Source: a virus. Taken from it: DNA of 27,636 nucleotides. Shown in pieces: positions 9,916 to 22,278 of this stretch (the first letter of the stretch is position 1; each line of letters begins with the position of its first letter). Location of the stretch: positions 1 through 27,636 of the IMG/VR virus record IMGVR_UViG_3300010413_000258; one strand, 5' to 3'. Below the pieces are notes generated by a model that was not told where the DNA came from, searched no databases, and was given only the letters and a program-made list of their open reading frames with translations. Both the position numbers and the translations under genes were made by a program.

Positions 9916-9963
9916 GTAAGCCATGTACTTAACCTTTAACGGTCTTGTTATTCTTTGGTTAGC
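9916..9963. repeat. 48-bp terminal repeat of array A (inverted copy at 17927-17974)
   Basis: Read on the minus strand, this 48-bp stretch matches 17927-17974 on the plus strand at 46 of 48 positions. It begins GCTAACC, contains AATAACARGACC and AGGTTAAG, and ends with ATGGCTTAC. It is itself an imperfect palindrome (GCTAACC near one end, GGTTAAG near the other), as an attC-type site would be. In the other copy ATGGCTTAC is the true start of a gene. Here those nine bases run straight into the antisense of the holin-like gene, so this copy looks like the derived one. Confidence 0.85.
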
Positions 9964-9966
9964 TTG

Positions 9967-10191
9967 CTATTCAATGAAACCGTCTCTTTCTGCTTTAGGT
10001 AACTTACAAAAGCTTTCAATGGGTTTATCTTGGGCTATTTCCATGGCACTCCAATTTGCCCATGCTTTGCAGCCAGCATCCGAATAACTGCAACTTTCAT
10101 CGATTCTAAGATACTCGCAAGCCAACCCACCATTCAACGCAGATGCCTCATTAGCCTGTTCCTCTGTTTGTTGTTTCTCTTTTTCTCCCAT
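9967..10191 (-). CDS. Array A cassette gene 5: small acidic Cys-containing protein
   Basis: This 74-residue protein has AGGAGG 5 nt before its ATG. The N-terminus is Glu/Gln-rich (GEKEKQQTEEQANEAS). Four cysteines follow (in GLACEYLR, DESCSYSD, GCKAW and SFCKLPK), spaced through the second half. There is no signal peptide and no family I recognise. The cysteine and tryptophan pattern suggests a small folded domain, possibly metal-binding. The stop lies four bases before the GCTAACC core of the 48-bp terminal repeat. Base composition is visibly AT-richer than the neighbouring polymerase gene. Confidence 0.65.
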   Translation of the reverse strand: MGEKEKQQTEEQANEASALNGGLACEYLRIDESCSYSDAGCKAWANWSAMEIAQDKPIESFCKLPKAERDGFIE

Positions 10192-10205
10192 TGGTTCCTC
10201 CTTTT

Positions 10206-10244
10206 GTGCCTCTCAAGGCACTGGTTAATTTTTAGTTCTATTTC
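10206..10244. repeat. Palindromic inter-cassette spacer A4 (attC-like)
   Basis: It contains a core GTTCTATTTC (10235-10244), the exact inverse of GAAATAGAAC at 10444-10453 on the other side of cassette gene 4. It also has GGTTAA (10223-10228) and a hairpin GTGCCT/AGGCAC (10206-10211 with 10216-10221, loop CTCA). It separates cassette genes 4 and 5. Confidence 0.55.
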
Positions 10245-10414
10245 TTGAAGAAAACTTTATAGAACATCTCGCTAAAAGTTTCTGATGCTTTTTCGCATCC
10301 CTCACACACAGAAATTAAGCCATACAGTAAGCCTATTCCTATTAAACAGAACGGGAATAAAACAATCTTCCCAATTATGTTGAAACTATTCCAACATCCT
10401 TTTAATATGTCCAT
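10238..10414 (-). CDS. Array A cassette gene 4: small membrane protein
   Basis: The product is 58 residues from the ATG at 10414, which has GGAG with a 6-nt spacer; an ATG two codons earlier sits directly against the GGAG and is less likely. A central hydrophobic helix (about residues 14-34, IIGKIVLFPFCLIGIGLLYGL) is followed by a polar, cysteine-containing tail ending in KVFFKK. No family recognised. The stop codon lies inside the repeated core GAAATAGAAC. The gene is bracketed by a perfect 10-bp inverted repeat (10235-10244 and 10444-10453), which marks it as one mobile unit. Confidence 0.6.
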   Translation of the reverse strand: MDILKGCWNSFNIIGKIVLFPFCLIGIGLLYGLISVCEGCEKASETFSEMFYKVFFKK

Positions 10415-10443
10415 AGTCATCTCCTTTTCTCTCTAACCAGCGC

Positions 10444-10519
10444 GAAATAGAACCCCGCACTGGAGAGTGACCTCAAACCTTAGCGGTTTTCGGCCCCTCA
10501 GTTTAATTCGTTAGTTTGC
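10444..10519. repeat. Palindromic inter-cassette spacer A3 (attC-like)
   Basis: This 76-bp spacer runs between cassette genes 3 and 4. On the plus strand it runs from core GAAATAGAAC (10444-10453) to TTTAATTCGTTAGTTTGC (10502-10519). The right end resembles the TTAA...CGTTAG end of integron attC sites. The interior holds CGGTTTTCGG and other short complementary segments. The sequence from 10437 to 10454 (CCAGCGCGAAATAGAACC) recurs exactly at 11001-11018. Confidence 0.65.
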
Positions 10520-10750
10520 TATGCAATATTTTATGTACCACGGCTTCGGCAATCGTGGGTGATGCCCAGCATGCATTACTGGCATTTGGTTCAGTAAACA
10601 CATATGTGGCTCTTTCTTGCTGGTCTGCTTCAATTCCTTTGGGCTTAAAAACTTACAGTCGTCGCAAAATAACAAATCACTGCAAGCGGATTTGCTGCCA
10701 AGTCTGTTGAATTTTTGTTTTATCCATAACCATAGTTTTAAAAGTTTCAT
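10511..10750 (-). CDS. Array A cassette gene 3: small basic Cys/His protein
   Basis: This 79-residue protein has AAAGGAG followed by a short spacer and ATG. The N-terminal 20 residues are hydrophobic and basic (LLKLWLWIKQKFNRL). A CxxC-like segment follows (LFCDDCKFLSPKEL) with further Cys (in MCLLNQ and KYCIAN) and His (HAGHH) residues, suggesting a zinc-binding fold. No family recognised. The TAA stop is embedded in the core CTAACG at its 3' end. The bracket repeat for this gene is only 6 bp (GTTTGC/GCAAAC), weaker than for its neighbours. Confidence 0.55.
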   Translation of the reverse strand: MKLLKLWLWIKQKFNRLGSKSACSDLLFCDDCKFLSPKELKQTSKKEPHMCLLNQMPVMHAGHHPRLPKPWYIKYCIAN

Positions 10751-10767
10751 CTACTCTCCTTTCATTC

Positions 10768-10796
10768 GCAAACCGTTGAGTTTGCCGTTCTATTTC
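10768..10796. repeat. Short palindromic inter-cassette spacer A2 (attC-like)
   Basis: It contains hairpin GCAAAC/GTTTGC (10768-10773 with 10780-10785) and core GTTCTATTTC (10787-10796). The core is the exact inverse of GAAATAGAAC at 11008-11017. It is much shorter than the other spacers, so it is either a minimal site or a deletion derivative. Confidence 0.5.
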
Positions 10797-10984
10797 TTTT
10801 GCTTTTCAAACTTGCAGCATGTAAGCGTGTTTACGAAAATTGAAGCTACCAAACATTCTATCCATGTAAGTGTCGGCAACCTATGTTCCAAATAAATTAA
10901 TAAGTAATTTGAAAATACCCACAATATTGTTGCATTTAATAAACTTGTTAAAACGTCATATACTATGGCTTTCCAATCAAGCAT
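10790..10984 (-). CDS. Array A cassette gene 2: small membrane protein
   Basis: The product is 64 residues from the ATG at 10984, preceded by AAAGGAGAGG. An in-frame upstream ATG exists at 11029, but it lies inside the palindromic spacer and has no ribosome binding site. The protein has a hydrophobic helix at about residues 10-32 (LTSLLNATILWVFSNYLLIYL) and a second weaker one at 41-55, ending CCKFEKQKK. No family recognised. Its TAG stop lies in the core repeat. A perfect 10-bp inverted repeat brackets it (10787-10796 and 11008-11017). Confidence 0.6.
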   Translation of the reverse strand: MLDWKAIVYDVLTSLLNATILWVFSNYLLIYLEHRLPTLTWIECLVASIFVNTLTCCKFEKQKK

Positions 10985-11007
10985 TTTCCTCTCCTTTCTT
11001 CCAGCGC

Positions 11008-11070
11008 GAAATAGAACCACGCGCTCCAATCAGAGCGCTAACGCGCCTGTTGATCTTTAATGTTATTTGC
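11008..11070. repeat. Palindromic inter-cassette spacer A1 (attC-like)
   Basis: This 63-bp spacer lies between cassette genes 1 and 2. The left core GAAATAGAAC (11008-11017) pairs with the far end of cassette 2. The right core GTTATTTGC (11062-11070) is the exact inverse of GCAAATAAC (11285-11293) at the other end of cassette 1. The interior contains GAGCGC and GCGCTC, which pair as a stem. Confidence 0.65.
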
Positions 11071-11253
11071 TTATTGTCCTTCCGGCCATGTGAAGGCTTC
11101 GGCTCGGCATTGGAAAACTTCCCAAGCGTATTTTATCCTCTTTCGCAAAGAGAGGTATTTTTTCTTAAAATTCTCTGGTCTTGCTGGCACCCACTTACCG
11201 TTGATCTCAGTTTGGGGCATTTCAGGGTCTTGTAAGCTCTTCAACTTCCACAT
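11071..11253 (-). CDS. Array A cassette gene 1: 60-residue conserved-looking protein
   Basis: The ATG at 11253 has AAGGAG upstream. The protein has an ordered, evidently folded sequence: KSLQDPEMPQTEINGKWVPARP, then a Lys/Arg-rich helix, then AWEVFQCRAEAFTWPEGQ. I have seen the style 'INGKWVPARP... AWEVF.GRAEAFTWPEGQ' in small phage proteins of unknown function, so this cassette may itself be of phage origin. A perfect 9-bp inverted repeat brackets the gene (11062-11070 and 11285-11293). It is the first cassette after the DNA polymerase stop and reads in the same direction. Confidence 0.7.
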   Translation of the reverse strand: MWKLKSLQDPEMPQTEINGKWVPARPENFKKKYLSLRKRIKYAWEVFQCRAEAFTWPEGQ

Positions 11254-11284
11254 AGGTTTTCTCCTTGTCTCTTTAATTTACAGC

Positions 11285-11350
11285 GCAAATAACAAGGCAT
11301 TCAACCCCGCTGCGCTGGACGGCTACGCCGCCGGTTAATTTTGCGTTAGT
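11285..11350. repeat. attC-like site at the end of the DNA polymerase gene
   Basis: This 66-bp palindromic element most resembles an integron attC. On the plus strand it reads ATAACAAGGCATTCAA on the left, CGGC/GCCG as an inner hairpin (11320-11323 with 11327-11330), AACC/GGTT as an outer pair (11303-11306 with 11333-11336), and TTAATTTTGCGTTAG on the right. Known attC sites carry the same order: TAACAA...TTCAA, then TTAA...GCGTTAG. The right core overlaps the polymerase TAA stop (11346-11348). The left core GCAAATAAC matches the far end of cassette 1. Confidence 0.75.
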
Positions 11351-13517
11351 CCTTACGATACCGCCTACCCCTCCAGCCGCCACTGGCTTTTATAGGCCAG
11401 TCAGCGCACCATGGAGGTAGCGTCATCATTATGTCTTCAAACTCTTCAATCGACCCCCAGCCCTTAGGCACTTCCGCGACAGGTTCGTCGTGTACGTGCA
11501 GTACGACAGGATAGCCCGCCTTTTCCAGATTAACTATACAATACCGCAGTATATCGTTAGCCGTGGCTTGTACGACGTTCTCGCAGAGTTTTCCCCCGTA
11601 TGTGTCGCGCTCAGTCCACCCCATAGGGCCTTTAGTGCTATCGGAATTATAGCCCCAGAAGTAAATTTTATACGACTGTTTACCCCAGTCTGTAGCCTCC
11701 AGCTCTACCCGTGGCTTATGATAAGCGAGAGTACGGCCCGATAATAGCCTGCAGTATAAGACGTTATTTTTAACGCCGTAAGCGATACCGTTATACTGGT
11801 AGCACTGGCCGGGCGAAAGGATCGCCGCGACCGCTGCGTCCTGGAGGCCGTACCAGAACTTAACTATATTAGGGGACTCCCGGCGCCAGTCTTTAACGCT
11901 CTTTAATATTTCCTCTTCTGTCATAAACTTATCAGCCCCGAATTGTACCGCAGCACCTACGGCCCCCTGGTAACCGTAAGCAAGCTCTGGGATCTTACCG
12001 TACTTAGCGCGGTGCGGGTGGTGCGTCCCGTTTTCTTTCTTATACTGTACGAACTCCTCGAAAGGCACGCCGGTTATCTTACTTGCCGACATTTCGTATA
12101 TAAGCCCGTGGCCCCTGAAGACCTCGACGCGCCATTCTTCACGAGCCAGACAGGCCAGGACTACCGCCTCGATAGCATTATAGTCGGAGCATATAAACTC
12201 TTTATCTGGAGGCGTGCAGAACAGCGCACGTATACACCCGGCTACCGCCAGCATAGGGTCGCCCCATAAAGCCTCGACGGTATCAAGGTCTCGGGAGGCT
12301 ATAGCCTGTAGCGCCGCCTCTGCGGCTTTATATGACCATTCAGCCTTTTCGCTGTGTCTGCTACCGCACTGCGGGCAGAACGTCAAACCCCGCCAGTATA
12401 TGCCGCCACAATCTTGACACTCGTAGACCTCCGGCCCCGCCTTAGGGGAGTTATGCGGCTGTACACCTTTACCCGACCAGCGACCAGTAGCCCGCGCCCC
12501 GTTCATAACAAACAGGCCTCGCAGTCTATCGTCCGAACTTGCCGTCCGCTCCATGGCGGCGGTTTTCTTGACGCTTGCCGATCCCAGGACCTCGCGTATC
12601 TGTAGCGCCCGGTATATGTCCGGTGGTAAGTCTGTACGCTTTAGGGCGGCCTCTACGTGGGCGGCGTCAAGGGATGGCATGGAATAACCCCTCGAGTCCA
12701 GCCATTTACGTAGCTGTGCCAGTTTATCGACGGTTACGTCGGGTATGCCCGTTATCTGGGCGAGTTCTGCGGTGTATCGCTCTTTAGCTTGCCGGACTAT
12801 CTCCCTGCAGTCGGACAGGCCCTTTTTATCTATAGGTATGCCGCGCACGTTTATACGCTGATCGATAAGCCATAGCTCCAGCTCCTCCGGCGATAAGTCG
12901 GGAATCATAGAAGAGATAGACCGCTCGGCTATAATATCTTGTATATTGTAACGGTCGAAGCGCTCGAAATCCTCCGGAGCGGTTAACCGGGTATATCTCA
13001 GGTCGGGGTTATTCTTTGTAGGATTACGCGGGACGGATAGCTTACGTATAAGCGCCTTACCCGCAGAGTCTTTTTGATGGGGTGCGTTAAGCGCCTTTGC
13101 GGCCTCCTCCAGCTTACCAGGCAGGCCCCAGGCGTTGCACTTAGACTGTGAGCACCGTAACTGGTCGAGCGGTAGCTCAGGCCATCCCATACGGGCATAG
13201 CAAACATAATGCCATATAAAAAACTCAAATAAAGAGTTGTGAGCCTCTACCAGACCGCCAGCTCTTATATAGTCAAAAAGATCGACGGGAAGAGGTCGAC
13301 CAGGTATCCATTGTCGCGGCCCCTTCCCGTCGTTAATATCATACCCGAGGTTAATAACCTCGGTAGAGGGGTGCTCTGCGTAAACAGCGGCCCCTACTAT
13401 TTCAATGCCCTTTTTACCACTGGGCGCACCTTCCGGAGCTTTCCACTTGCGGGCTACCGGATCGTAAACATAGCCCGCCTCGGAATAAGTCTCGAAGTCT
13501 ATCTCAGCAAGTACCAT
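11346..13517 (-). CDS. DNA polymerase, family A, with 3'-5' exonuclease and zinc-ribbon insert
   Basis: This 723-residue protein is the phage replicative polymerase. The proofreading exonuclease is at the N-terminus: Asp7 and Glu9 in EIDFETYS, the HNSLFEFFIW segment at 93-102, and YNIQD (190-194) as Exo III. Polymerase motif A is SDYNAIEAVVLA with Asp445 and Glu450. Motif B is RAKYGKIPELAYGYQG (503-518). Motif C is HVHDEP with Asp677 and Glu678. Between them, after GRWSGKGVQPHNS, is an inserted CxxC...CxxC zinc ribbon (Cys367, 370, 381, 384) where many relatives have only a loop. The start overlaps the preceding gene by 19 nt and has no clear ribosome binding site. The stop sits in the attC-like core. 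Confidence 0.95.
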   Translation of the reverse strand: MVLAEIDFETYSEAGYVYDPVARKWKAPEGAPSGKKGIEIVGAAVYAEHPSTEVINLGYDINDGKGPRQWIPGRPLPVDLFDYIRAGGLVEAHNSLFEFFIWHYVCYARMGWPELPLDQLRCSQSKCNAWGLPGKLEEAAKALNAPHQKDSAGKALIRKLSVPRNPTKNNPDLRYTRLTAPEDFERFDRYNIQDIIAERSISSMIPDLSPEELELWLIDQRINVRGIPIDKKGLSDCREIVRQAKERYTAELAQITGIPDVTVDKLAQLRKWLDSRGYSMPSLDAAHVEAALKRTDLPPDIYRALQIREVLGSASVKKTAAMERTASSDDRLRGLFVMNGARATGRWSGKGVQPHNSPKAGPEVYECQDCGGIYWRGLTFCPQCGSRHSEKAEWSYKAAEAALQAIASRDLDTVEALWGDPMLAVAGCIRALFCTPPDKEFICSDYNAIEAVVLACLAREEWRVEVFRGHGLIYEMSASKITGVPFEEFVQYKKENGTHHPHRAKYGKIPELAYGYQGAVGAAVQFGADKFMTEEEILKSVKDWRRESPNIVKFWYGLQDAAVAAILSPGQCYQYNGIAYGVKNNVLYCRLLSGRTLAYHKPRVELEATDWGKQSYKIYFWGYNSDSTKGPMGWTERDTYGGKLCENVVQATANDILRYCIVNLEKAGYPVVLHVHDEPVAEVPKGWGSIEEFEDIMMTLPPWCADWPIKASGGWRGRRYRKD

Positions 13518-16313: not shown

Positions 16314-17014
16314 ATATCCTGTAAGGCTTTAGCTATAAGGGGTATAAACGGGACGCCGTCGTCGCCTGCTTTAGCTAGTTCCGGTAGGTTAGTCACGCCT
16401 AAAGATACAGTGGCGCCGCACTGCTTACACGCGTCTACTATATCAAACGGCGCTAGCTTCGTGCCCGCTGCGGTTATAAATGAAACGAGCGCCCCGTAAT
16501 TCTGGGGTAAGTCAGCGGTCGGCCCTGCGGGAGTCGGCACGCTCGCCGCTGCCTCAGGTGCGGGCGGTCCAGTAGTCTCAGGTGCGGGCGGCGCTGGCGG
16601 TCCGGTGGTCTCGGGTGGCGGCGGTGTTGCGAATACGGCCGGGTCGCTCGGTGGCGCCTCTGGTACGGCGGTGGCCAAAAGTTCCGCCCTTACTTTCGCC
16701 AGCACGTCTTTATCAAGATTGCGCTTGACTCTCCAGGTGCCGTCTACATTAAGAGCGCGTGAGCTAGAATGTATGCGTACGTCCCACGGTAGACCCTCGG
16801 CGTCCATTTCAGCCTCAGGTATAGTCTCTTTCGGTATACCGCCCGCGTTAGCCACAGCTGCGTCGAGTCGATTCTCTAGAGCCTCGACCGTGTCCTCCGA
16901 CGGGTCCGCTATAACTTCCTGGCCGATAGCTAGTTGCTTAAGATAGTCCGCAGTCTTAAGCAGCACCCCCCTTTCCATTGGTATAGTAATACTAATTTTG
17001 TCTGGTCTTGTCAA
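16295..17014 (-). CDS. Phage protein with Pro-rich linker, unknown function
   Basis: The open frame of 239 codons starts at TTG 17014 (first codon after an in-frame stop two codons upstream) or at ATG 16978. KISITIPMERGVL near the start looks like protein sequence, favouring TTG, but neither start has a clear ribosome binding site. Residues 70-110 contain DAEGLPWDVRIHSSSRALNVDGTWRVKRNL, a block known from phage replication-associated proteins. A linker of Pro, Ala and Thr repeats (PPETTGPPAPPAPETTGPP, about 128-165) precedes a compact C-terminal domain with CKQCG. It is the first gene of the leftward operon. Function unknown. Confidence 0.75.
   Translation of the reverse strand: MTRPDKISITIPMERGVLLKTADYLKQLAIGQEVIADPSEDTVEALENRLDAAVANAGGIPKETIPEAEMDAEGLPWDVRIHSSSRALNVDGTWRVKRNLDKDVLAKVRAELLATAVPEAPPSDPAVFATPPPPETTGPPAPPAPETTGPPAPEAAASVPTPAGPTADLPQNYGALVSFITAAGTKLAPFDIVDACKQCGATVSLGVTNLPELAKAGDDGVPFIPLIAKALQDIWAARG
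16986..17014 (-). promoter_or_regulatory. Possible -35/-10 promoter for the leftward operon
   Basis: On the minus strand TTGACA (17014-17009), a 17-bp spacer and TATTAC (16991-16986) resemble a sigma70-type promoter. The predicted start of transcription falls near 16979, right at the ATG 16978. This would make the message leaderless and exclude the TTG start, so the similarity may be chance. In the plus direction TTGTCA (17008-17013) and TATTTT (17031-17036) are similarly spaced in this AT-rich gap. Confidence 0.35.
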
Positions 17015-17071
17015 TAATTATTTTTAATTTTATTTTTGAGGCGCATAACGAATAAACTAAGGAGCGAGCGG

Positions 17072-17329
17072 ATGACAAGAAAATGCGATCATGGCCCAAA
17101 TAGCCCAGGATGTTTTTATTGCAATGGGAAGAGACGAGCTAACAGCGAGTCGCCTTCAGTGATGGGTTCTAATGCCGGGTTGAAGCTGGCAGGATATGTA
17201 TTAAGTTGCAAAGCGGAAAATACTACCGACTGGATGCAGGGGCTGGCCGAAGAGCTTAACACTTTTGCCGAAAGCATAGGCTACACTGACAGATTCTATT
17301 TTGACGGAATATATATAAGGCGGCATTAG
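17072..17329 (+). CDS. Array B cassette gene 1: small Cys/His protein
   Basis: This 85-residue protein starts at ATG 17072, with GGAG 7 nt upstream; an in-frame ATG 36 nt earlier lacks a ribosome binding site. The N-terminus has a compact metal-binding pattern: CDH, then CFYC after seven residues, i.e. C-x-H-x7-C-x2-C. The rest is a helical region (MQGLAEELNTFAESIGY) and a basic end. No family recognised beyond the likely zinc finger. It is the first gene of the rightward array, next to a CATAACGAAT core-like sequence at about 17044. Confidence 0.65.
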   Translation: MTRKCDHGPNSPGCFYCNGKRRANSESPSVMGSNAGLKLAGYVLSCKAENTTDWMQGLAEELNTFAESIGYTDRFYFDGIYIRRH

Positions 17330-17337
17330 AACAATGG

Positions 17338-17399
17338 AAATAACCCGGTTTGACAACGTAGTTGGCAAATCCGATGGTTGATTGACCGGGTTAGATTGC
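17338..17399. repeat. Palindromic inter-cassette spacer B1 (attC-like)
   Basis: TAACCCGGT (17341-17349) and ACCGGGTTA (17385-17393) form a perfect 9-bp inverted repeat around a 35-nt interior. The right core GTTAGATTGC (17390-17399) fits the attC consensus GTTRRRY (GTTAGAT) and is the exact inverse of GCAATCTAAC at the far end of cassette gene B2. Confidence 0.75.
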
Positions 17400-17415
17400 G
17401 CGATGGGAGAAAGAC

Positions 17416-17613
17416 ATGACAGAGCATGAGTTATACGAAGAAGCTATAAAGGGCATGGAAAATAAAGCTAGGCACAAGTTGGCCAATTATCTTGCTCACA
17501 GCTACCTTATTACAAAGACAGGTGAAATGACGCTGATAGAGCGCAAGAAAGATAAGATGGCATTAATACTTGATAAAGAAGGAAACTTATGGATTGCGAA
17601 AAGAGCAATCTAA
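17416..17613 (+). CDS. Array B cassette gene 2: small charged protein
   Basis: This 65-residue protein has GGGAGAAAG ahead of its ATG. It is a mixed charged helix (EHELYEEAIKGMENKARHKLANYLA) followed by a beta hairpin (TKTGEMTLIERKKDK, then ALILDKEGNLWIAKRAI). No family recognised. The TAA stop is inside the core GCAATCTAAC (17605-17614). Together with GTTAGATTGC (17390-17399) this forms a perfect 10-bp bracket around the gene, so B2 is the clearest single cassette in the window. Confidence 0.7.
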   Translation: MTEHELYEEAIKGMENKARHKLANYLAHSYLITKTGEMTLIERKKDKMALILDKEGNLWIAKRAI

Positions 17614-17638
17614 CGAATAGCTCACCTGACGCGGTGAG
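17605..17638. repeat. Palindromic inter-cassette spacer B2 (attC-like)
   Basis: The core GCAATCTAAC (17605-17614) continues as GAATAG and a hairpin CTCACC/GGTGAG (17621-17626 with 17633-17638, 6-nt loop). ATCTAAC fits the RYYYAAC consensus of attC R'' boxes. Confidence 0.65.
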
Positions 17639-17661
17639 AAAGAAAGAGGAGGGACAAGGAA

Positions 17662-17931
17662 ATGGAAAACGAAGGCAAGCGGGATCAAAAGAAGCAAAAA
17701 GTGAGCGGTCTGGTGGAGCGTGGGGTTAGCCAACCCCTTGCCTATGTGGGACTGGCTTGCGGAAGACAATACTTGAAAGTTGCCGGGGTGATCGTGGCAA
17801 TTGAAGGAGATATTTGCAGGGATCCAATGATCCCAGATGAGTACCGGCACCCAAGGCCAGAACACCATTTGAAATGGATGCCGGAAATGCTGGAATATGC
17901 CGCCAAAACTATAAATGAGATGGTTGGCTAA
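17662..17931 (+). CDS. Array B cassette gene 3: small protein, unknown
   Basis: This 89-residue protein starts at ATG 17662 after GAGGAGGGACAAGG. It has a Lys-rich polar N-terminus, a middle with a hydrophobic stretch (YLKVAGVIVAIEGDICRD), a Pro/His-rich turn (EYRHPRPEHHLKW) and a final helix. No family recognised. The TAA stop is at the left edge of the 48-bp terminal repeat. No matching inverted core is visible at its 5' side, unlike B2. Confidence 0.65.
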   Translation: MENEGKRDQKKQKVSGLVERGVSQPLAYVGLACGRQYLKVAGVIVAIEGDICRDPMIPDEYRHPRPEHHLKWMPEMLEYAAKTINEMVG

Positions 17932-17974
17932 CCAAAGAATAACAGGACCGTTAAAGGTTAAGTAAATGGCTTAC
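17927..17974. repeat. 48-bp terminal repeat of array B (inverted copy at 9916-9963)
   Basis: It matches the array A copy at 46 of 48 bases in inverted orientation. It covers the stop codon of cassette gene B3, an imperfect palindrome (GCTAACC...GGTTAAG), and ends with ATGGCTTAC, the first three codons of the next gene. Identity stops abruptly at both ends. Confidence 0.9.
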
Positions 17975-20578: not shown

Positions 20579-21019
20579 TACTTGACGAGTGGGCGAAACG
20601 ATGGAATATACCACCCGTAGCGCTTCGGGACTTACGGGCCGCTATGGGTCTCTACGAGGAACCGGTAACCAACGCCACAAAGGGCGAGGCGGTAAACCAG
20701 CAGGCTATAAGGCTCGCGGCTCCAGGGCACGCGTGCCGCCTGTGGCGTAACAATAGAGGCGCGGCGGTCGACCCTAAGTCCGGGGCGCATATACGTTATG
20801 GGCTGGCCAATGATTCAAAGGAAATGGATAAACATATCAAGTCAAGCGACCTTATAGGAGACGGTGGGCCTCTTCCGCGCTGTGGAGGTTAAACCGGATA
20901 ACTGGGTGTACCGTGGAACCGAGCGGGAGGTCGCCCAGTTGGCTTACATATCGCTGGTTGTATCAATGGGGGGCTTTGCTTGTTTCGCACGGTCGCCGCG
21001 GGAGGTTTGGTCCCTATGA
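20575..21019 (+). pseudogene. VRR-NUC-type nuclease gene broken by small deletion and +1 frameshift
   Basis: The frame from ATG 20575 encodes an N-terminal helix, then LWRNNRGAA..., IRYGLAND and KSSDLIG, the nuclease-core style of VRR-NUC proteins. It then runs out of frame and stops at about 20892. In the +1 frame from about 20855 the rest of the protein continues: TVGLFRAVEVKPDNWVYRGTERE and FARSPREVWSL to TGA at 21017-21019, which overlaps the next ATG. The core Asp (SSDLIG) and the ExK (VEVK) are thus in different frames. Relatives have about ten residues between them that are missing here, so a short deletion is likely. It could also be a sequencing or assembly error. Confidence 0.7.
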
Positions 21020-22278
21020 TTACCTACGGCTCGGTGTGCAGCGGTATAGAATCCGCCAGTGTAGCGTGGGAGCCTCTGGGCTACAGGCCGCTATGGTTTT
21101 CTGAAATAGAGCCTTTCCCGTCTGCGGTACTGGCGCACCACTGGCCGACAGTGCCTAACGTGGGCGATATGCTGGCCCTGCCTTTTCTTATAGAGCGGCA
21201 AGTATTCCCGGCGCCCGACGTTCTGGTAGGCGGTACGCCATGCCAGGCTTTTAGCGTGGCCGGTATGCGCGCCGGACTGGATGACGCACGGGGACAATTA
21301 ACTATAAAATACGTGGAGGTGCTTAATGCAATCGACGAACAACGGGAAGAGGGCGACGAGTGCGTCGCAGTCTGGGAGAACGTGCCGGGCGTCCTCAGTA
21401 GTAAAGATAATGCTTTCGGATGTTTTCTCGCAGCACTCGTCGGGGAAGAAGAGCCGATACGACCAGCAGGGGCCAAATGGACGCACGCTGGTAGTGTGTA
21501 TGGACCCCAAAGAGCTGCAGCGTGGCGGGTACTCGATGCCCAATATTTCGGAGTGGCCCAACGACGCCGCCGTGTGTTTGTTGTCGCAAGTGCTCGAAAC
21601 GGGTTCGATCCCGCCGAAATACTTTTTGAGTTCGACGGCGTGCGCCGGGATACTCCGCCGAGCAGAGAAGCGGGGGAAGGTGTTGCCGGAGAAGCTGGAG
21701 GGTGCGCTCCTTTCGATATGCAAGCCTTTGGGGAGTATGGGCGGGGACTGACTGCATCCACTCTTAAAATGAGGGACTACAAGGACGCTATGGACTTAGT
21801 CGTCCACGGTACGCAAGACCCTTGCGTATCTGATAAAGCCTTTGCACTCGGGCGGAACAACGGACAGGAGAACGTGATTTGCGAGACACAGTTCGGTGTG
21901 GAAGTAGCAGGCACGCTTACCGCTCGGTACGATAGTTTGCCCTGCTCGGACAGGGGTGCTAATATGGTAGCCTACGGGGTTAATGGTGACGAAACGCCCA
22001 AGGTAATGAAAGAGCAGTCCCCCACTTTGCGGGCTGAACAAGGCGGCGAGGGTCGCTGGTGTATGACTCCTGACGCCCAAGTCCGCCGCCTCACGCCCGT
22101 AGAGTGCGAAAGGCTGCAAGGTTTCCCTGACGGCCATACTCTTATCCCGTGGCGCGGTAAGCCCGCCTCGGAGTGTCCGGACGGGCCGAGATATAAAGCG
22201 ATAGGTAATAGTAAGGCCGTGCCGGTGGTACGCTGGTTAGGCTTAAGAATTAAAAATTATCTGGAGGTAGGCCGATGA
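21016..22278 (+). CDS. C5-cytosine DNA methyltransferase
   Basis: This 420-residue protein is a DNA (cytosine-5) methyltransferase. Motif I is VCSGIESAS (7-15). Motif IV is GGTPCQAFS with catalytic Cys76. Motif VI is WENVPG (120-125), motif VIII QRRRRVF (182-188), motif IX RRLTPVECERLQGFPDG (357-373) and motif X KAIGNSKAVP. The ATG lies inside the end of the broken nuclease gene (ATGA). Between motif VIII and IX is the target recognition region, which here also encodes a second ORF in another frame. No endonuclease partner is visible, so it more likely modifies the phage genome against host restriction. Its target sequence cannot be read from the window. Confidence 0.93.
   Translation: MITYGSVCSGIESASVAWEPLGYRPLWFSEIEPFPSAVLAHHWPTVPNVGDMLALPFLIERQVFPAPDVLVGGTPCQAFSVAGMRAGLDDARGQLTIKYVEVLNAIDEQREEGDECVAVWENVPGVLSSKDNAFGCFLAALVGEEEPIRPAGAKWTHAGSVYGPQRAAAWRVLDAQYFGVAQRRRRVFVVASARNGFDPAEILFEFDGVRRDTPPSREAGEGVAGEAGGCAPFDMQAFGEYGRGLTASTLKMRDYKDAMDLVVHGTQDPCVSDKAFALGRNNGQENVICETQFGVEVAGTLTARYDSLPCSDRGANMVAYGVNGDETPKVMKEQSPTLRAEQGGEGRWCMTPDAQVRRLTPVECERLQGFPDGHTLIPWRGKPASECPDGPRYKAIGNSKAVPVVRWLGLRIKNYLEVGR
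21326..21751 (+). CDS. Nested out-of-frame ORF inside the methyltransferase gene
   Basis: A 141-codon frame in the +1 phase relative to the methyltransferase starts at ATG 21326. A perfect GGAGG (21315-21319) lies 6 nt upstream, which the methyltransferase itself has no use for at that point. The second half (SEWPNDAAVCLLSQVLETGS, KYFLSSTACAGILRRAEKRGK) looks like a real folded protein, and I recognise the style 'WP.DAAV..LS.VLE.GSIP..YFLS..AC.GILRRAE.RGK.LP' from small phage proteins. Whether it is expressed and what it does are unknown. If real, it is a genuine two-frame overlap across the methyltransferase recognition region. Confidence 0.55.
   Translation: MQSTNNGKRATSASQSGRTCRASSVVKIMLSDVFSQHSSGKKSRYDQQGPNGRTLVVCMDPKELQRGGYSMPNISEWPNDAAVCLLSQVLETGSIPPKYFLSSTACAGILRRAEKRGKVLPEKLEGALLSICKPLGSMGGD

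Follow-up and report, generated by a model that had tools for sequence, protein, structure and literature searches.

An integron cassette begins at a G|TT crossover and ends in an attC site whose R'' box is complementary to the start of the same cassette. The attC site is defined by an R'' box ending in AAC and an R' box beginning with GTT, with 5-6-nt spacers to pairing L'' and L' boxes, one extrahelical base and a length of 57-141 bp (PMC3053210). In phages, CALINs have been reported in Tetrasphaera phage TJE1, Pseudoalteromonas phage PH101 and the Myoviridae MW202573 (Qi et al. 2023, PMC9892861), and TJE1 is among the phages for which recombination at attC sites was demonstrated (PMC9892861). 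The DNA analyzed here, a viral fragment of 27,636 nucleotides (the window), resembles these phage CALINs in having small genes flanked by attC sites and no integrase. It carries two groups of three and five attC sites, array B and array A, and no Phage_integrase domain in the 27.6-kb fragment, which is the composition of a CALIN, defined by two or more attC sites with no intI nearby; furthermore, neither a tyrosine recombinase nor an intI gene was found in the fragment, which is therefore not a complete integron. Positions 17043-17974 very probably represent a minus-strand array of three integron gene cassettes with an attI-like head at its right end, a sister of the five-cassette array at 9916-11351; both would be served by an integrase acting in trans.

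Architecture and tiling of arrays A and B

Array B (region 17041-17974) is flanked by a leftward gene (17014-16295) and the helicase operon, contains three small ORFs, and is built of three minus-strand cassettes with crossovers at 17932, 17614, 17332 and 17049. Cassette B3 (17614-17932) measures 318 bp from crossover to crossover and shows a 124-nt attC site at 17608-17731 with the boxes GGCTAAC-5-GCTCCACC...GGTGAGC-5-GTTAGAT; its plus-strand ORF (17662-17931, 89 amino acids) has both start codon and Shine-Dalgarno sequence within the attC. Cassette B2 (17332-17614, 282 bp) has a 71-nt attC at 17326-17396, with L boxes AATCAACC/GGTTATT scoring 16.6 bits, and a plus-strand ORF (17416-17613) encoding 65 amino acids of no known family. 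Cassette B1 (17049-17332, 283 bp) has a 130-nt attC at 17043-17172, with L boxes ACTGAAGG/CCTTAGT scoring 17.3 bits, and a plus-strand ORF (17072-17329, 85 amino acids) that starts within the attC.

Array A consists of five plus-strand cassettes with crossovers at 9958, 10235, 10510, 10787, 11062 and 11345, all with plus-strand attC sites and minus-strand ORFs: A1 (9958-10235, 277 bp; attC 10120-10241, ORF 9967-10191), A2 (10235-10510, 275 bp; attC 10447-10516, ORF 10238-10414), A3 (10510-10787, 277 bp; attC 10667-10793, ORF 10511-10750), A4 (10787-11062, 275 bp; attC 11011-11068, ORF 10790-10984) and A5 (11062-11345, 283 bp; attC 11287-11351, ORF 11071-11253, PHROG 21988). The attC of A4 is the weakest site, with L boxes of 7.8 bits, while that of A5 reaches 22.2 bits with the attC scorer and 39 bits (E 7.8e-8) with the covariance model.

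All eight cassettes start with GTT and 9-12 nt complementary to their own R'' box. In six cassettes the resulting R'/R'' brackets show no mismatch along their 9-12 nt, and in the other two they match at 9 of 10 positions; their sequences differ between cassettes. The L boxes show one extrahelical base and spacers of 5-7 nt, and score 7.8-21 bits over the eight sites of 58-130 nt. Thus R''/R' boxes with spaced, pairing L boxes, complementarity of each R'' to its own R', and end-to-end tiling were all found.

The earlier note had described B2 as an ORF bracketed by a perfect inverted pair, and GTTAGATTGC at 17390-17399 and GCAATCTAAC at 17605-17614 do match at 10 of 10 positions. B2 is not the sole bracketed ORF: B1 (17166-17177/17321-17332) and B3 (17724-17735/17922-17933) have brackets of 12 of 12 positions which the note overlooked. 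The 9-bp inverted pair placed before B2 (17341-17349/17385-17393) is real, as is the repeat of TAACGAATA at 17046 and 17611; however, the pair and the supposed TAACGAAT core both belong to attC sites, which the note had read on the opposite strand. The strand was also the weak point of the cassette idea itself, which otherwise held: attC and cassette polarity are antisense to the ORFs, so that the two arrays are indeed oppositely oriented and each leads away from a common 48-bp attI-like sequence. The GTTRRRY core which the note proposed is fitted in full by only one of 10 R' boxes (GTTAGAT, 17608-17614), the others showing GTT followed by other bases. Strict scans of the ORF strand for GTTRRRY/RYYYAAC gave a chance site as their sole result and were discarded.

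Perfect 10-nt GTT/AAC brackets with their arms 90-900 nt apart occur six times in the window against 0.45 times per shuffle (maximum two), and all six fall within arrays A and B. A search for units combining own-cassette R'/R'' complementarity with attC L boxes found the eight cassettes as a gap-free chain, on both strands as expected; the only further unit in the window is a long alternative pairing in which the brackets of A2 and A4, both GTTCTATTTC, are combined. Neither 60 dinucleotide shuffles of the window nor the stretches retrieved from 27 related phage contigs and from two further loci with B3 homologues contained any such unit. The same search recovered many linked units from integron integrase loci on viral contigs.

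The attC scorer was trained on 76 attC sites from 80 bacterial-genome loci around integron integrases, and the covariance model (Infernal) was built from 35 short bacterial integron attC sites only. Applied to the window, both methods found the minus-strand site at 17608-17731, with 33.7 bits in the scorer and 25.5 bits (E 1.5e-4) in the covariance model. This site and 11287-11351 are the two best scorer matches of the window, where the shuffle maximum is 16.6 bits. Five of the six best covariance-model matches are array sites, headed by the same two (E 8e-8 for 11287-11351), and the model gave no match in six relatives. Taken individually, only two of the eight sites reach significance; the other six depend on position, bracket and L boxes taken jointly. 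The attC and cassette reading is confirmed by the scorer, by the covariance model as a separate method, and by the way in which the units tile exactly. Cassette tiling accounts for the repeats with no need for group II introns, homing elements or transposons, and no Rfam family or tRNA was found.

Relatives with about 31-58% helicase identity have the same flanking genes with unrelated small genes between them and no attC units, so the brackets are not part of sequence conserved among relatives of the same gene content, the finding that the earlier note had named as contrary to its idea. In relatives that have the polymerase, other genes directly follow it. Such variation would also suit ordinary accessory-gene slots of a phage, in which inverted repeats and terminators arose by chance with no cassette system, and six of the eight site scores are near background when taken alone; however, the eight units tile perfectly where the 60 shuffles and the 27 loci of related phages hold no comparable unit, and this, together with the significant covariance-model matches, leaves this explanation hardly credible. 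A close relative with different cassette content was not found by cassette-protein, DNA-pattern or polymerase searches, and the polymerase query gave no closer relative. The only near DNA match of this phage in the phage collection is a DNA cytosine methyltransferase gene (20980-22278), which shows stretches of 77-86% DNA identity to methylases of Vibrio, Aeromonas, Enterobacter and Sinorhizobium phages.

Folding, length and genes of the cassettes

In predicted bottom-strand folds of the linear arrays, pairing of the L stem ranges between 0.00 and 0.45, compared to a median of 0.62 in reference attC sites, and five of the eight sites fall below the 5th percentile. When the cassettes are folded as circles, the bottom strands of all three B cassettes show an R stem with a mean pairing probability of 0.98-0.99 and L stems of 0.57-0.89. 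In the circle the R'' box pairs with the R' box of the same cassette along 9-12 nt, and the B cassettes take on the layout of an attC, in which unpaired spacers separate the R stem from the L stem; the B3 circle gives a textbook fold with 5/5 spacers and a bulge. L-stem pairing in array A remains low in the circular form (0.04-0.54). Long R'/R'' runs also occur in reference cassettes and are therefore not a unique trait of these arrays.

Cassette length is nearly constant, at 275-283 bp in seven of the eight cassettes, despite a bimodal attC length (58-71 and 122-130 nt) and variable ORF length. Reference cassettes have a median of 497 bp (SD 188), and 14 of 109 are 318 bp or shorter. The uniform length and the circular-form folding may offer a handle on the limits of cassette size and on the timing of attC activity.

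ORFs that begin with ATG and have a Shine-Dalgarno sequence are confined to the strand antisense to the attC sites, with five in array A and three plus a spurious one in array B; none occurs on the attC strand of either array. The start codon lies within the attC in A1, A3, B1 and B3; for every gene the ribosome-binding site is either part of the attC or next to it, and the stop codon is located at the R box or within 9 nt of it. The minus-strand genes of array A form a continuation of the polymerase operon. The GC content of the two arrays is 41% and 46%, against 52% for the window.

Homologues were found for the B3 and A5 proteins only and for none of the other six, and no cassette protein matched plasmids or PADLOC. 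The core of the B3 protein is 85% identical in amino acids to a gene product of an unrelated phage family (two loci), and B3 DNA is 75% identical to the unrelated phage over 17746-17916, strictly within the cassette body; the N-terminus of B3 encoded by the attC is absent from the homologues.

Array heads and the possible origin of the cassettes

Directly upstream of the first crossover, both arrays show the same 48-bp stretch, at 9916-9963 on the plus strand in array A and at 17927-17974 on the minus strand in array B, where it ends at the first crossover, G|TTAGC. The two copies are 96% identical, and identity stops no more than 6 nt past the crossover. The block stands where attI would be expected and, judged by its sequence context, is likely attI-like; it could also be a duplicated gene start, as it includes the ATG and the likely ribosome-binding site of gene 17966. 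It had no clear match in the sequences of 160 integrase loci, and exact DNA patterns for the block and for TAACGAATWAAACTRAGG gave nothing or a chance coding match, with no further copy found.

The gene start bears on a second explanation, in which a host integrase placed the cassettes at phage sites other than attI and the 48-bp repeat arose when the start of gene 17966 was duplicated by chance. Cassettes can indeed enter attG sites, which are neither attC nor attI and are found at many E. coli genomic loci (PMC12444791). In both arrays, however, the block is on the integration side and the two copies cease to be identical no more than 6 nt beyond the crossover, and we regard insertion of this type as quite improbable.

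According to the preferred reading, integron-type cassettes mobilized in trans, each cassette would be a non-replicating unit consisting of the G|TT crossover, a small opposite-strand ORF and then the attC (R''-L''-loop-L'-R'). The integrase may come from an integron-bearing host or from a phage gene outside the 27.6-kb fragment; it would cut the folded bottom strand of the circular cassette between G and TT, and the cut cassette would be inserted at the attI-like site, or excised. Since the sequenced piece has no integrase, the virus seems to borrow a bacterial gene-swapping system. The cassette genes read towards attI, and their expression would therefore depend on phage transcription that runs into each array from its far end, in A from downstream of the polymerase operon and in B from the divergent region at about 17010-17040. 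A sigma-70-like promoter match on the plus strand lies just upstream of array B (17008-17036), although it is weak and of a kind no more frequent than expected by chance.

The cassettes may still be mobile; it is possible, at lower odds than the preferred reading, that the arrays are a fossil: real cassettes that were copied as blocks out of a bacterial integron through illegitimate or homologous recombination, have since become fixed as ordinary phage genes and do not recombine any more. The absence of an integrase from the fragment, the weak linear folds, the attC loops that hold coding sequence and the partly degenerate attC sites of array A would agree with this. Decay should, however, have blurred the R'/R'' brackets, which are intact or nearly so although they differ between cassettes, and the same 48-bp block heading two arrays of different content points to two insertion sites and not to one copied block. 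A stronger proposal, which we consider unlikely, is that the phage has an integron of its own: two near-identical dedicated attI sites at operon edges, with a reverse polarity that would place minimal cassettes of about 280 bp under phage transcription, and an integrase from the missing part of the phage or from a regular host, by which small accessory genes would be swapped.

Integron cassettes in bacteria are known stores of anti-phage defence genes, according to works cited in PMC12444791. A phage stocking cassettes at two attI-like sites, if this is true, would use the same machinery for itself, and the arrays provide a concrete example on which the capture of cassettes by viruses can be tested.

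Comparison with known integrons and phage CALINs

Bacterial integrons and the integron arrays of viral contigs share with arrays A and B the R and L boxes, spacers, extrahelical base, cassette tiling and own-R'/R'' complementarity; they differ in that here there is no integrase gene, the cassettes are far shorter and more uniform, and the linear folds are weaker. Many IMG/VR contigs, filed as viral, encode an integron integrase together with attC arrays. The prophage integron of Shewanella phage M16-3 (MZ568829) likewise has attC sites (19.5-29 bits) adjoining phage genes but, unlike these arrays, carries its own integrase.

Among phage CALINs, the sites of TJE1 score 20.9-26.4 bits on the same covariance model and are similar to ours by scorer and model; their R' boxes also deviate from GTTRRRY (GTTATGC, GTTATAC). 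The TJE1 genes have the normal sense orientation, unlike those described here. In our own scans, the annotated genes of the H101 record (PH101; NC_029094, 26420-28482) and of MW202573 (2069-3738) appear antisense to the attC strand. The idea that reverse ORF orientation is unique to these arrays was dropped because the comparison with reference cassettes is noisy (34 sense, 50 antisense) and these two known phage arrays look reversed too.

In relation to the known phage CALINs, this phage shows two arrays, a common 48-bp attI-like head and cassettes of 275-283 bp in seven of eight cases. None of the open-access papers searched described paired arrays that have a single attI-like sequence in common and consist of minimal cassettes of uniform size. 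Phage CALINs as such are already known, while the paired arrays, the shared attI-like site and the uniform cassettes of about 280 bp appear to be new.
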